Source: Streptomyces roseoviridis
GTDB lineage: Bacteria; Actinomycetota; Actinomycetes; Streptomycetales; Streptomycetaceae
Reading direction: 5' to 3'
NCBI RefSeq assembly: GCF_039535235.1
Contig: NZ_BAAAWU010000001.1
Span: forward strand, 6,575,001 to 6,639,000
DNA length: 64,000 nt
How positions within the stretch are numbered: position 1 is the stretch's first letter; every line of letters starts with the position of its first letter. Below the pieces are notes generated by a model. The model searched no databases, had not been told where the DNA came from, and was given only the letters and a program-made list of their open reading frames with translations. A program made the position numbers and the translations under genes. Shown here in pieces: positions 825 through 5,384 of the stretch.

Positions 825-1847
825 GTGCCGCCCGAGACGCCGACCGCCGCTCCGACCGATCCGCCCGCCCCTCCGAGCGGTCCTCCCGCCGCTCCGGACG
901 GTCCTCCGGCCGACCCGGGCGATGCGGCCGTCCTTCCGAGTGGTCCTCCCGCCGTTCCGCGCGATGCGACCGCCGTCTTCGAGGAGCACCGCCCGCTGCT
1001 CACCGGGGTCGCCTACCGCATGCTCGGACGGGTCGCCGACGCCGAGGACGTCGTGCAGGAGGCATGGCTGCGCTGGTCCGCCGACGACCGCGGTGCCGTC
1101 CGGGAGCCCCGCGCCTTCCTCGTACGGATCACCACCCGGCTCGCCGTCGACCGGCTCCGCCAGGTCCAGTCCCGCCGCGAGTCGTACGTGGGCCCCTGGC
1201 TGCCCGAGCCGGTCGTCACCGACTTCGGGCCCTCGGTGCCCGACACCGCCGAACGCGTCCTGCTCTCCGACTCCGTCTCCCTCGCCCTCCTCGTCGTCCT
1301 CGAATCCCTCTCGCCCCTGGAGCGCGCGGTGTTCGTGCTGCGTGAGGCATTCGGCTTTCCCTACGCCGAGATCGCGGCCACCCTCGACCGCAGCGAGGCC
1401 GCCGTCCGGCAGCTCGCCGGCCGTGCCCGCAAGCACGTCGACGAGGGCCGCCCGCGCTACGACGTCGACCCCGTCCAGCGCCGCGACCTCACCGAGCGGT
1501 TCCTCGCCGCCGCCGCGAGCGGCGATCTGGAGGGACTGCTCGCCCTGCTCGCGCCCGACGTCCGGCTCGTCGGCGACAGCGGCGGCAAGGCCAAGGCCCC
1601 GCTGCGGATCATGGAGGACGCCGAGAAGATCGGCCGCTTCCTCGTCGCCGTCTCCCAGGGCACCGAGGACGTCTACGACGACCTGCGCTTCCAGGAGGTC
1701 AACGGCGGCCCCGCCCTGGTCGTCCGCGTCGGCGGCAGGGTCGACGCCGTCTTCCAGGTCGACGTCCGCGACGGACGGATCGCCTGCGTCTACATCGTGC
1801 GCAACCCCGACAAGCTCCGGAACCTCCGGAACCTTGCCCTCGGCTGA
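825..1847 (+). CDS. ECF41-type RNA polymerase sigma factor (SigJ-like)
   Basis: Extracytoplasmic-function sigma factor that would direct RNA polymerase to a specific promoter set. Region 2 starts near residue 53 (FEEHRPLLTGVAYRMLG, then DAEDVVQEAWLRW), followed by the ECF41 linker motif WLPEP, region 4 (REAFGFPYAEIA) and a SnoaL-like C-terminal domain ending in NPDKL, the hallmark that tunes ECF41 activity. The first 50 or so residues are a Pro/Gly-rich low-complexity extension built of PPSGPPA-like repeats. GTG at 825 is the only plausible in-frame start upstream of region 2. The usual ECF41 partner (carboxymuconolactone decarboxylase, oxidoreductase or epimerase) is not adjacent. ECF41 members lack a classical anti-sigma factor. 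Confidence 0.88.
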   Translation: MPPETPTAAPTDPPAPPSGPPAAPDGPPADPGDAAVLPSGPPAVPRDATAVFEEHRPLLTGVAYRMLGRVADAEDVVQEAWLRWSADDRGAVREPRAFLVRITTRLAVDRLRQVQSRRESYVGPWLPEPVVTDFGPSVPDTAERVLLSDSVSLALLVVLESLSPLERAVFVLREAFGFPYAEIAATLDRSEAAVRQLAGRARKHVDEGRPRYDVDPVQRRDLTERFLAAAASGDLEGLLALLAPDVRLVGDSGGKAKAPLRIMEDAEKIGRFLVAVSQGTEDVYDDLRFQEVNGGPALVVRVGGRVDAVFQVDVRDGRIACVYIVRNPDKLRNLRNLALG

Positions 1848-2039
1848 CCCGCCCCGGGGGCGCCGAGCGCGGCAGCCCCGCCGAGGTGACCCGCGGGAGA
1901 AGGCCGGAAGATCGCGGGGAATCGGTCGCGTGACCGAAGGCTGACGGCGCCCCGTTCCTCCGCTCCCGGCCCTTCCGTGCCGTCAGACTCCTGACAGGCG
2001 ACGCCCGGGTGGGGCGGTCGGGCGTACGGGCGATACGGG

Positions 2040-2963
2040 GTGGGCGTGACCGAGCACGGGAGGGGCGGCCGTGCCGTTCCGGGCGGGACGGCGCCGGGCG
2101 GGACGCTGTCGGGCGGGGCGGGTGCGAGTGTGGCGGACCACGGCGTCCCCGGCGCCCGCACGGCGACGGAGGATCCTCCCGGCGGGCCACGGCACGACGA
2201 CGAGCAGCGGCGGGACGACGAGCAGCGGAGGGACGACGGCCCGACGCGTGCGGTGCCCCGGCACGTGGCCTGCGTGATGGACGGCAACGGCCGCTGGGCA
2301 CAGCGGCGTTCGCTTCCCCGAACGGCGGGCCACCGGGCCGCGGAGACCTCGGTGATCGACGTGATCGAGGCGGCCCGGGCGGCCGGAGTCGAATGGCTCA
2401 GCCTGTACGCCTTCTCCACCGAGAACTGGAACCGTCCCGGCGCCGAGGTCGACGACCTGATGCGGCTGGTCCGCCGCGTCGTGCGCAGGCACGCGCCGCT
2501 GCTGCTCGCCCGGGGCATCCGCTGCCGCTTCCTCGGGGCGGCGGATCCGCGTATTCCCCCGGAACTGGCCCGGGACTTCGAGGACCTGGCGACGCTGACG
2601 GCCGACAACCGGAGAATGACGCTCACCGTCGCCTTCGACCACGGCGGGCGCCGGGACATCGTCGAGGCCGCCAGGTCGCTGATCCGCAGCGGGACGCCCG
2701 CCGACGAGGTGACCGAGCGGCTCTTCGCCGGCCATCTGCCCTTCCCCGACACCCCCGACGTCGACCTCGTCATCCGCACCTCCGGCGAGCAGCGCATCTC
2801 CAACTTCATGCTCTGGCAGGTCGCCTACGCCGAGTGGGTCTTCCCCGAGGTGCTCTGGCCGGACTTCCGGGCCCCCGACTTCCTCGCCTGCCTGCACACC
2901 TACCGGCGCCGTGACCGCCGCTTCGGCGGGGTGCCGCCCCAGAAGAACGGAGACCCGTCATGA
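2040..2963 (+). CDS. Cis-prenyltransferase (isoprenyl transferase, UppS paralogue)
   Basis: Condenses isopentenyl diphosphate onto an allylic diphosphate with Z stereochemistry. Visible family motifs are MDGNGRWAQRR (catalytic Asp about residue 81), GHRAAE, LYAFSTENWNRP, AFDHGGRRDIVEA and RTSGEQRISNFMLWQ. The core occupies residues about 72-300; before it lies a charged, repetitive extension (DDEQRRDDEQRRDD), so the true start may be later, for example GTG at residue 72. The usual AFNYGG is AFDHGG here. It is not next to recO/era as a primary undecaprenyl synthase usually is, so this is probably a second, specialised enzyme. Its TGA overlaps the ATG of the DUF2236 gene by 4 bases, implying translational coupling. 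Confidence 0.88.
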   Translation: MGVTEHGRGGRAVPGGTAPGGTLSGGAGASVADHGVPGARTATEDPPGGPRHDDEQRRDDEQRRDDGPTRAVPRHVACVMDGNGRWAQRRSLPRTAGHRAAETSVIDVIEAARAAGVEWLSLYAFSTENWNRPGAEVDDLMRLVRRVVRRHAPLLLARGIRCRFLGAADPRIPPELARDFEDLATLTADNRRMTLTVAFDHGGRRDIVEAARSLIRSGTPADEVTERLFAGHLPFPDTPDVDLVIRTSGEQRISNFMLWQVAYAEWVFPEVLWPDFRAPDFLACLHTYRRRDRRFGGVPPQKNGDPS

Positions 2964-4450
2964 CGACCGGAACCACGGGAACGGCCGAAGAGGCGCACCT
3001 GTTCGGCGCGGAATCGCCGTTCCACGCCTTCTTCGACGACCCCCGCTGGGCGCTCGCCATGATCCGCGCCACCGTGCTGGAGGCCGCCCACCCCCAGATC
3101 GGTGCCGCCCTCGCCGACAACTCCACCTTCGTGGCCCACCCCTGGCGCCGACTGCGCAACACCTTCCTCAGCATGCGGCGGATGTTCGACGCCGACCCGG
3201 CGGTCCGCGAGCGGGAGGCCGCCCGGCTCAACAGGCTGCACGCCCGCATGAGCGGCTCCGACTCCCGCGGCCGCGCCTACGACGCGATGGACCGACCGAC
3301 CCGCGCCTGGGTGGTCGCCACCCTCTTCGAGAGCGCCGTCACCATGTGCCGGCTGAGCGGGCAGCCGCTCGACCAGGACACCATGGAGCGCATGTACGCC
3401 GAGTACCGCGCGTTCCTCGCGGCGCTCGACGGCGACGCCGGGGAACTCCCCGAGGACGTGCACGCCTTCTGGCGGTACTTCGACGGGGTCGTCGAGGACG
3501 AGCTGGAGAACACCGAGGCGGCCCGCGTCATCCTCTACCGGCTCTTCGACCACCTGCCCGCCCCGGCCCTGCTCGACGGGGCGCCGGCCCTGTGGGCGGC
3601 CGGACGGGCCGTCGTCGGTCCGCTGCTCGGCGCGATCACCGTCGCCTCGCTCCCGGAGCCGTACCGCCGCAGGGCCGGCCTGCCCGAGATGCCCGGCGCC
3701 CAGACCGTCATGCAGGGCGCCTACCTCGCCGCCGGGCTCGCCCGCTTCCTGCCCGAAGGCTGGATCAACGCCGAAACCGTCATCGAGACCCTCTCCCTCT
3801 CGCCCGACAGCGACGACCCCCGGGCGCGGACCATGGCCGCCCTGCGCGCCCGCATGAAGCGGGCCTCCGCCCTCCTGCGCCTCCTGTCGCCGCTGACCGG
3901 CGACACCGGACCGGACCCGTTCACGGCCGCCCCGGCGGGCACGGCGGACAGGGCGGCGGCGACGGGGGAGGGCCGGCGCTCGGCGGAGGAGTTCTTCCGC
4001 CAGGTGCTGGACCAGACCGGCGACGGCCACCTCGACTGGCCCGACCTGGCCGCCATGGCACGCGAACTGGCCACCCGTCTCGATCTGGACGAGCCCGAGG
4101 AGACCAGGCTCTACGACGCCTTCGCCGCCTGGTGGCGCGAACTGCAGGCGGCCCTCGACGCGGACGGCGACGGCCGCGTCAGCGCCGCCGAGTACGCCGC
4201 CGCCGTGCCCTCCCTCGCCGGTCCCGCGCTCATCCGCGTCGCCGAGGTGCTCTTCGACGCCACCGACAAGGACGGCAGCGGAACCATCGACGCGGACGAA
4301 TACCGGGGGCTCTTCCGCACCGCCTTCCACCGGGACCTGGCCACCGCCGACGGCGGTTACGGCCGCAGCGCCTTCGTGGGCGACTTCCTCTCCTTCATGT
4401 CGGGCCGCCGGGCGACCACGCCCTACGACCCGCTGCTCGCCGATGCGTAG
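2960..4450 (+). CDS. DUF2236/MpaB-like oxygenase with C-terminal EF-hands
   Basis: Residues 20-300 match the oxygenase MpaB/DUF2236 family (FDDPRWALAMIRATVLEAAHP, then HPWRRLRNTF), whose characterised members are haem oxygenases that cleave isoprenoid C=C bonds (rubber oxygenase Lcp; MpaB of mycophenolate biosynthesis). A linker at about 310-345 leads to three EF-hand calcium loops: DQTGDGHLDWPD (351), DADGDGRVSAAE (400) and DKDGSGTIDADE (436), plus a degenerate fourth. There is no signal peptide, so it is likely cytoplasmic. It overlaps the upstream cis-prenyltransferase by ATGA, suggesting both act on the same polyprenyl compound. The fusion of oxygenase to a calerythrin-like calcium sensor is unusual. 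Function in vivo is inferred. Confidence 0.82.
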   Translation: MTTGTTGTAEEAHLFGAESPFHAFFDDPRWALAMIRATVLEAAHPQIGAALADNSTFVAHPWRRLRNTFLSMRRMFDADPAVREREAARLNRLHARMSGSDSRGRAYDAMDRPTRAWVVATLFESAVTMCRLSGQPLDQDTMERMYAEYRAFLAALDGDAGELPEDVHAFWRYFDGVVEDELENTEAARVILYRLFDHLPAPALLDGAPALWAAGRAVVGPLLGAITVASLPEPYRRRAGLPEMPGAQTVMQGAYLAAGLARFLPEGWINAETVIETLSLSPDSDDPRARTMAALRARMKRASALLRLLSPLTGDTGPDPFTAAPAGTADRAAATGEGRRSAEEFFRQVLDQTGDGHLDWPDLAAMARELATRLDLDEPEETRLYDAFAAWWRELQAALDADGDGRVSAAEYAAAVPSLAGPALIRVAEVLFDATDKDGSGTIDADEYRGLFRTAFHRDLATADGGYGRSAFVGDFLSFMSGRRATTPYDPLLADA

Positions 4451-4529
4451 GACCGGCGGGGCGCTGCCCGGCGCCGTGCCGCATCCGCGCGGCCGAGAGG
4501 GCGCGTTTCCCGGGCCGCTCGACGAAGGA

Positions 4530-4543
4530 TTGGTCTTGACCAA
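4530..4543. promoter_or_regulatory. Palindromic operator upstream of gntR gene (dre-like)
   Basis: TTGGTC-TT-GACCAA is a perfect 6+6 inverted repeat about 100 bp upstream of the GntR gene start. It resembles the TGGTCTAGACCA core bound by DasR, a GntR/HutC-family regulator of Streptomyces, so autoregulation by the downstream HutC-type protein, or control by DasR, is plausible. The region between it and the start codon is unusually AT-rich for this window. Confidence 0.45.
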
Positions 4544-4643
4544 GGGTGTGCCGCGCCTTATGGTCGCAGAGTTAGTGCAGGAACCTTTAATAAACAAGGG
4601 CGCGGAAAACGCCGCGGGACACGGCGAACGGCGGAGGATCAGG

Positions 4644-5384
4644 GTGGGGACCACGCAGCTGGAAACAGTGCCGGAGCCGAAGTACTGGCACCTCAAGACC
4701 GTGATCGGCGAAGCCCTCGACTCGGACTTCGCGGTCGGGGAGATCCTGCCCAACGAGCGTGAGCTGGCCGCCCGTTTCGGCGTCGCCCGCGCCACCCTCC
4801 GGCAGGCCCTGGAGCAGCTGGAGCTCGAAGGCCGCCTGCAGCGCCGCCGCGGCGTCGGCACCACCGTCGCCCCGCCCCGCGTCGGCGTCGACGTCTCCAC
4901 CACCCAGCACAGCTGGCCCGGCGTGGGCGAGGACACCTGGCAGTCCGTCGACTCCGCCGACGACACCGCCCCCGCAGCCGTCGCCCGTCTCCTCGACATC
5001 GAGCCCACCGCGCGCGTGCACGTCGTGCGCCGGCTGCGCGTCACCGAGGGACAGCCCGTCGCGGCCGAACTGCTCTACGTGCCCGCCGGATCCGTGCCCG
5101 GCCTCGTCGAGGCCGACGCGTCCGGCGGACCGGCGCGCGCCCGCGCCGTCCTGCGCGAACTGCGGCAGCTGACCCTCGACGGCCAGGACCGCTCCGTCGA
5201 ACTGGGCTCCGCCCGCGCCGACGACGCCCGGGAGCTGGACCGTCTGCCCGGCGCTCCGGTCCTCGTCGTCACCACCCGCTACCTCTCCGAGGGCCGCACC
5301 GCCGCCGTCTCGGTGGCCACCTACCGCGCCGACACCTGCCGGCTCACCTTCGGTGACTCCGGCGACCTGGCGATGGCATCCTGA
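4644..5384 (+). CDS. GntR/HutC-family transcriptional regulator
   Basis: 246 aa. The N-terminal winged helix spans residues about 10-80 (PNERELAARFGVARATLRQA, then GRLQRRRGVGT), the classic GntR DNA-binding pattern. A UTRA-type effector domain fills the rest, ending near VVTTRYLSEGRTA. GTG at 4644 was chosen for its GGAGGAT ribosome site and because it gives the usual family length; upstream in-frame starts add unrelated residues. The effector is unknown; UTRA domains often bind phosphorylated sugars or histidine derivatives. A TTGGTC/GACCAA palindrome 100 bp upstream is a candidate autoregulatory site. It is convergent with a ROK regulator gene, separated by a strong hairpin. Confidence 0.88.
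   Translation: MGTTQLETVPEPKYWHLKTVIGEALDSDFAVGEILPNERELAARFGVARATLRQALEQLELEGRLQRRRGVGTTVAPPRVGVDVSTTQHSWPGVGEDTWQSVDSADDTAPAAVARLLDIEPTARVHVVRRLRVTEGQPVAAELLYVPAGSVPGLVEADASGGPARARAVLRELRQLTLDGQDRSVELGSARADDARELDRLPGAPVLVVTTRYLSEGRTAAVSVATYRADTCRLTFGDSGDLAMAS

Follow-up and report, generated by a model that had tools for sequence, protein, structure and literature searches.

A cis-prenyltransferase gene overlapping an MpaB/Lcp-type oxygenase gene with EF-hands: a candidate portable isoprenoid pathway in Streptomyces

Two overlapping genes in the genome of Streptomyces roseoviridis (a single contig of 7.45 Mb) raise the question of what is achieved by encoding an enzyme of isoprenoid chain synthesis together with a putative isoprenoid-cleaving oxygenase. 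In the window, that is the whole stretch of 64,000 nucleotides that was analysed and to which plain positions refer, a cis-prenyltransferase (CPT) gene (2040..2963, + strand) is followed by a gene (2960..4450, + strand) for a 496-aa fusion of an MpaB/Lcp-type oxygenase and EF-hands (PF09995, 3e-47, plus EF-hand families), here called oxygenase-EF. The ATG of the latter at 2960 sits within the CPT stop, and the resulting 4-base overlap (ATGA, 2960..2963, + strand) predicts translational coupling of the two proteins. A sequence-only reading of this DNA had described a UppS-like gene overlapping by 4 bases a DUF2236/MpaB-type gene with three canonical EF-hand loops, and the overlap, the PF09995 match and the loop pattern all agree with it; the product that it had proposed, a polyprenyl aldehyde or apocarotenoid-like compound under calcium control, appears plausible. 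Purifying selection acts on both genes (dN/dS 0.10-0.30), for which RefSeq has generic names only ('uppS' and 'oxygenase MpaB family protein'). The explanation preferred here, to which we give a probability of about one half, is that they form a portable two-gene pathway in which a Z-polyprenyl diphosphate is made and a C=C bond is then cleaved by a Ca2+-tuned b-haem dioxygenase.

Distribution and mobility of the gene pair

Of 121 evenly drawn Streptomyces genomes, 31 contain a close full-length oxygenase (69-100% identity); a close CPT (78-100%) is present in exactly these 31, and the two genes are adjacent in every case. A further 80 loci, taken from named genomes, all gave tblastn matches to both genes. 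Of 110 loci, 109 retain the 4-base overlap, in the form of ATGA, GTGA or TTGA, and the remaining one (L103) has a frame disruption. On plasmids, close homologues of the oxygenase and of the CPT occur in one and the same set of seven, beyond which CPT identity falls to 50%, and the pairwise protein distances of the two partners are correlated (r=0.89 over 101 distinct loci, a value to which shared ancestry contributes). The pairing of CPT and oxygenase is not chance. The expectation that it would be conserved beyond close relatives also holds, as the pair occurs across Streptomyces and, in a diverged form, in a second family of the order, where two genomes carry adjacent and overlapping genes with 69% identity for the CPT and 44-47% for oxygenase-EF. 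In a strict sample of the phylum ranging outside the order, matches were found in Streptomyces only.

ORF clustering of the fetched loci returned two clusters of 67 loci each, with all others at 5 or fewer; the count of 67 is an effect of the crude ORF caller, as both genes are detected by tblastn in every locus. A larger cluster around the pair was considered and rejected: no third ORF is shared in about 80 loci, and the neighbours in the window lie near no other copy. With no third gene common to the loci, CPT and oxygenase are the unit, hereafter the cassette. The DNA that the window copy has in common with 109 further cassette loci spans ~1917 to ~4450. In the closest loci similarity starts abruptly at ~1913-1919 (a sharp left edge in 24 loci) and ends at ~4446-4460, and these edges indicate that the shared unit consists of about 120 bases of upstream DNA and the two genes. 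The sharp left edge coincides with a conserved upstream element, a presumed promoter/operator (1916..1947, + strand) with the family consensus GAATCGGACATATGAGCCAAGGGTGA, which reads GGGGAATCGG...ACCGAAGGCTGA in the window copy and has an unusually conserved spacer. We take the consensus to be reminiscent of promoters for stress/ECF sigma factors in which the -35 is GGAAT. Positions 1700-4700 gave no Rfam match, either to a riboswitch or to another known RNA.

Relatives of this genome lack a segment of which the ends, placed by homology breakpoints, lie at approximately 1857..4525 (+ strand). Homology to uninterrupted sigJ-gntR loci stops on the left at ~1817-1856 and resumes on the right at ~4512-4529. 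In 26 of 29 relatives sigJ immediately precedes gntR and the cassette is absent from the junction, several of these relatives carrying the cassette elsewhere, and sigJ, gntR and rok are mutually adjacent in the relatives examined. The simplest reading of these breakpoints is that the unit was inserted between sigJ and gntR in this genome. No convincing terminal repeats or transposon were found around the cassette. Other copies reside at unrelated chromosomal sites and on large, mostly linear (mega)plasmids, a few of them near transposase genes, and the copy in Actinacidiphila (L048) differs from that of the window by a dS of only ~0.2, no more than is seen within Streptomyces. Truncated or frame-broken oxygenase remnants without a CPT were observed at L159:5228-6151, L184:5041-5964 and L185:5088-5914 (genomes G072, G612 and G538), so that both gain and loss are visible when these are set beside the spread of the cassette. 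All in all, as judged from comparison of the loci, the pair is a self-contained and horizontally acquired unit. A phage origin was rejected, with no match among 50,697 phage records, as was membership in a defence system, with no PADLOC model matching at E up to 1. A contig labelled Microtetraspora glauca NRRL B-3735 (L095) gives the same cassette match figures as a genome of the genus Streptomyces (G073, L018), and probably derives from a misnamed Streptomyces.

The cis-prenyltransferase

PF01255 covers CPT residues 79-296 (E=7e-73, 245 bits by profile search), and the E. coli UppS catalytic positions D26, H43, E73, W75, R77, R194, E198, R200 and S202 are all present; the E. coli sequence used for this comparison agrees with the stretch that was aligned. 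From what is known of the family, the enzyme would make a Z-polyprenyl diphosphate. The extra N-terminus noticed in the sequence-only reading does exist, as an extension of about 70 aa, although it is low-complexity and not conserved. The start region GTGACCGAG is kept among loci, and translation probably begins at the conserved GTG at 2046, or else at the GTG at 2040. The closest solved structures are the polyprenyl diphosphate synthases 7cpn/7cpm and the decaprenyl diphosphate synthase 2vg2.

The genome encodes three CPTs. Besides the cassette enzyme there are a UppS at C1:5166699, adjoining recO (46% identity to the cassette CPT), and a protein homologous to the short-chain enzyme of mycobacteria (37%). 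With two further CPTs in the genome, one of them a recO-linked UppS, the cassette CPT is not the housekeeping enzyme. Housekeeping UppS is a conserved copy in the recO context, which the cassette enzyme is not, and the latter is accessory; the earlier view of it as away from the recO/era context, and as other than the primary UppS, thus fits the paralogue count. It resembles UppS-type CPTs (PF01255, 7cpn/7cpm nearest) in its catalytic residues and in having a small residue, Ala, at position 69 (E. coli numbering), as in long-chain UppS, where short-chain enzymes have a large one; it differs from them in its long unconserved N-terminus, its horizontal mobility and its Phe and His at positions 143 and 145, both unlike housekeeping UppS. 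These residues do not permit a confident prediction of chain length.

The small residue at position 69, which the short-chain paralogue of the same genome does not share, speaks for an explanation in which the cassette supplements the synthesis of an undecaprenyl-type carrier, for instance to protect the cell from compounds by which this lipid is depleted or blocked, while the oxygenase disposes of excess or oxidised polyprenyl lipid. A patchy and mobile distribution would also suit such an accessory trait. We consider it unlikely, as F143 and H145 separate the cassette CPT from housekeeping UppS and the strict coupling to an oxygenase would be left unexplained.

The oxygenase and its EF-hand domain

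The catalytic domain (MPAB_Lcp_cat, DUF2236; residues 25-253, 3032..3718, + strand) matches PF09995 with 161.9 bits against a curated cut-off of 23. The AlphaFold2 model of the oxygenase has a mean pLDDT of 68, rising to 80-94 across most of residues 31-180, and in Foldseek it matches t-anethole oxygenase 8s1j (TM 0.60 by target length) and S. coelicolor CabD 3aka (TM 0.68). Although the E-values are modest, both matches to the predicted fold are of exactly the expected kinds. We take 8s1j to belong to the C=C cleaving haem oxygenases described by Purwani et al. 2024, a study cited in PMC12724181.

A haem site can be outlined by alignment and spacing, not superposition: D53, R64, N67, T68 and H94 occupy positions corresponding to haem-site residues of Lcp and Nro1. 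In particular, R64 and T68 (3149..3163, + strand) are the counterparts of Lcp R164 and T168, with N67 in place of Lcp K167, and H94 (3239..3241, + strand) is, on its family invariance, the presumed proximal haem ligand (H198 in LcpK30, H104 in Nro1). LcpK30 requires H198, its proximal ligand, as well as R164 and T168, and the distal Lys is only 59% conserved among Lcps (PMC5522427). The haem-site residues of Nro1, an MpaB-family enzyme, were inferred to be D57, K71 and H104 (PMC12724181). R64, T68 and H94 are invariant in 14 of 14 diverse oxygenase-EF proteins. This genome has four MPAB_Lcp_cat proteins in all, and H94 is conserved in the remaining three as well. One member of the family in the genome is a distant protein of Lcp-like length (401 aa; C1:262443-263648, L129:4444-5649).

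By analogy with these relatives, we infer that the oxygenase binds haem and cleaves C=C bonds in an O2-dependent manner. Hydropathy revealed no apparent signal peptide or transmembrane helix, the N-terminus MTTGTTGTAEEAHLFG being without a hydrophobic stretch. Membership in Lcp, the secreted rubber oxygenase, was rejected on the missing secretion signal and on N67 in place of the distal Lys167. The protein would thus be a cytosolic b-haem dioxygenase of the MpaB/Lcp family, translated in a coupled manner with the CPT, that may cleave a C=C bond of the polyprenyl chain, of its alcohol or of a derivative to give aldehyde or ketone fragments. It has in common with LcpK30, Nro1, t-anethole oxygenase and fungal MpaB the Pfam domain, a similar predicted fold and the haem-site His, Arg and Thr, whereas the C-terminal four-EF-hand domain and the coupling to a CPT set it apart from those b-haem oxygenases.

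Three EF-hand loops of canonical pattern lie in the C-terminal domain on the + strand: loop 1 DQTGDGHLDWPD (4010..4045), near-invariant across the whole oxygenase-EF family, loop 2 DADGDGRVSAAE (4157..4192) and loop 3 DKDGSGTIDADE (4265..4300), the latter degenerate in some relatives. A degenerate fourth site follows loop 3, and the domain matches S. coelicolor CabD by profile, as the best match, and by fold (3aka, 3akb). The earlier description of a protein ending in three EF-hand loops was thus right about the canonical loops and is refined to a CabD/calerythrin-like four-EF-hand domain. CabD and calerythrin share this architecture and are stand-alone EF-hand proteins of actinomycetes, while here the domain is fused to an oxygenase. 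It is under purifying selection (dN/dS 0.10-0.21), and the fact that loop 1 is its most conserved part across the whole family favours a real metal-binding role, a structural one being possible. Judging from domain content, the CabD-like domain would bind Ca2+ and tune the activity or the placement of the oxygenase.

Fusion to such a domain, together with the Asn in place of the distal Lys, would also be consistent with an MpaB/Lcp domain that is no oxygenase at all and serves the CPT as a haem- or Ca2+-dependent regulatory partner. We regard this as very improbable: the Arg, Thr and His that are essential in Lcp are all invariant, and the cited characterised relatives with an MpaB/Lcp domain are oxygenases.

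Diverged pairs, stand-alone relatives and the substrate

A distant version of the pair in Streptomyces genome G593 (CPT 49%, oxygenase-EF 37%, about 108 bases apart) bears directly on the substrate. At this locus (L179:2533-4474) a squalene/phytoene-synthase-like gene is divergent from the CPT gene, which the oxygenase-EF gene follows, and in genome G085 (L157:2622-4557) such a gene is divergent from a related CPT without an oxygenase. The two loci hint at a broader family of Streptomyces isoprenoid loci built around a CPT, and the gene beside the pair in G593 suggests that the substrate can be other than a linear chain. The main rival to the preferred explanation is accordingly that another enzyme acts between CPT and oxygenase, unlinked host enzymes (a phosphatase, a squalene/phytoene-synthase-like enzyme or a membrane prenyltransferase) first converting the Z-prenyl diphosphate to a downstream product on which the oxygenase acts by cleavage or oxidation. 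S. roseoviridis itself has an unlinked homologue of the G593 synthase (C1:2277503-2278489, L190:6504-7490; 41% over 200 aa), with no obvious isoprenoid genes adjoining it, and the side chain of a meroterpenoid is the substrate of fungal MpaB. Such an intermediate step is nevertheless somewhat doubtful, as more than 100 cassettes in many contexts have no third shared gene.

Returning to the two-gene pathway in which the chain is made and cleaved, the points that weigh against it are the Asn at the position of the distal Lys of LcpK30, a model of moderate confidence with fold matches that are weak by E-value, and the occurrence of related oxygenase-EF proteins without a linked CPT. Indeed, stand-alone proteins of equal domain order at 31-38% identity are found in Streptomyces and Embleya (again 'oxygenase MpaB family protein' in RefSeq), with no CPT nearby and an EF-hand set more complete than that of the cassette oxygenase. 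The fusion is thus not confined to loci with a CPT, and it may predate the partnership. As a tentative extension of the preferred explanation, the cassette could be a mobile 'make-and-cut' unit in which cleavage of the chain, under Ca2+ control, yields a novel aldehyde or ketone of polyprenyl type, perhaps with a role in signalling or defence.

Each part of the cassette comes from a known family; for the combination as a portable two-gene unit no published description was found, and the search, with most subscription papers outside it, returned no literature joining a CPT with MpaB/DUF2236, or DUF2236 with EF-hands. If the preferred explanation is true, about a quarter of Streptomyces species hold an unrecognised isoprenoid pathway only two genes long, and the cassette would provide a bacterial example of a haem oxygenase gated directly by calcium as well as an intracellular biosynthetic role in bacteria for MpaB-family enzymes. 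The two-gene size makes the pathway testable by expression and a well-defined target for product discovery.

Further arrangements were observed among the relatives. Two of the stand-alone oxygenase-EF genes reside on linear plasmids of S. goshikiensis and Streptomyces sp. Mg1 (L132:8944-10356 and L227:7944-9356), near lantibiotic-dehydratase and ABC-transporter genes, and in one locus (L158:4613-8024, G074 C23) two sequences of CPT type are found in a stretch of 3.4 kb, of which the first has a C-terminal extension.
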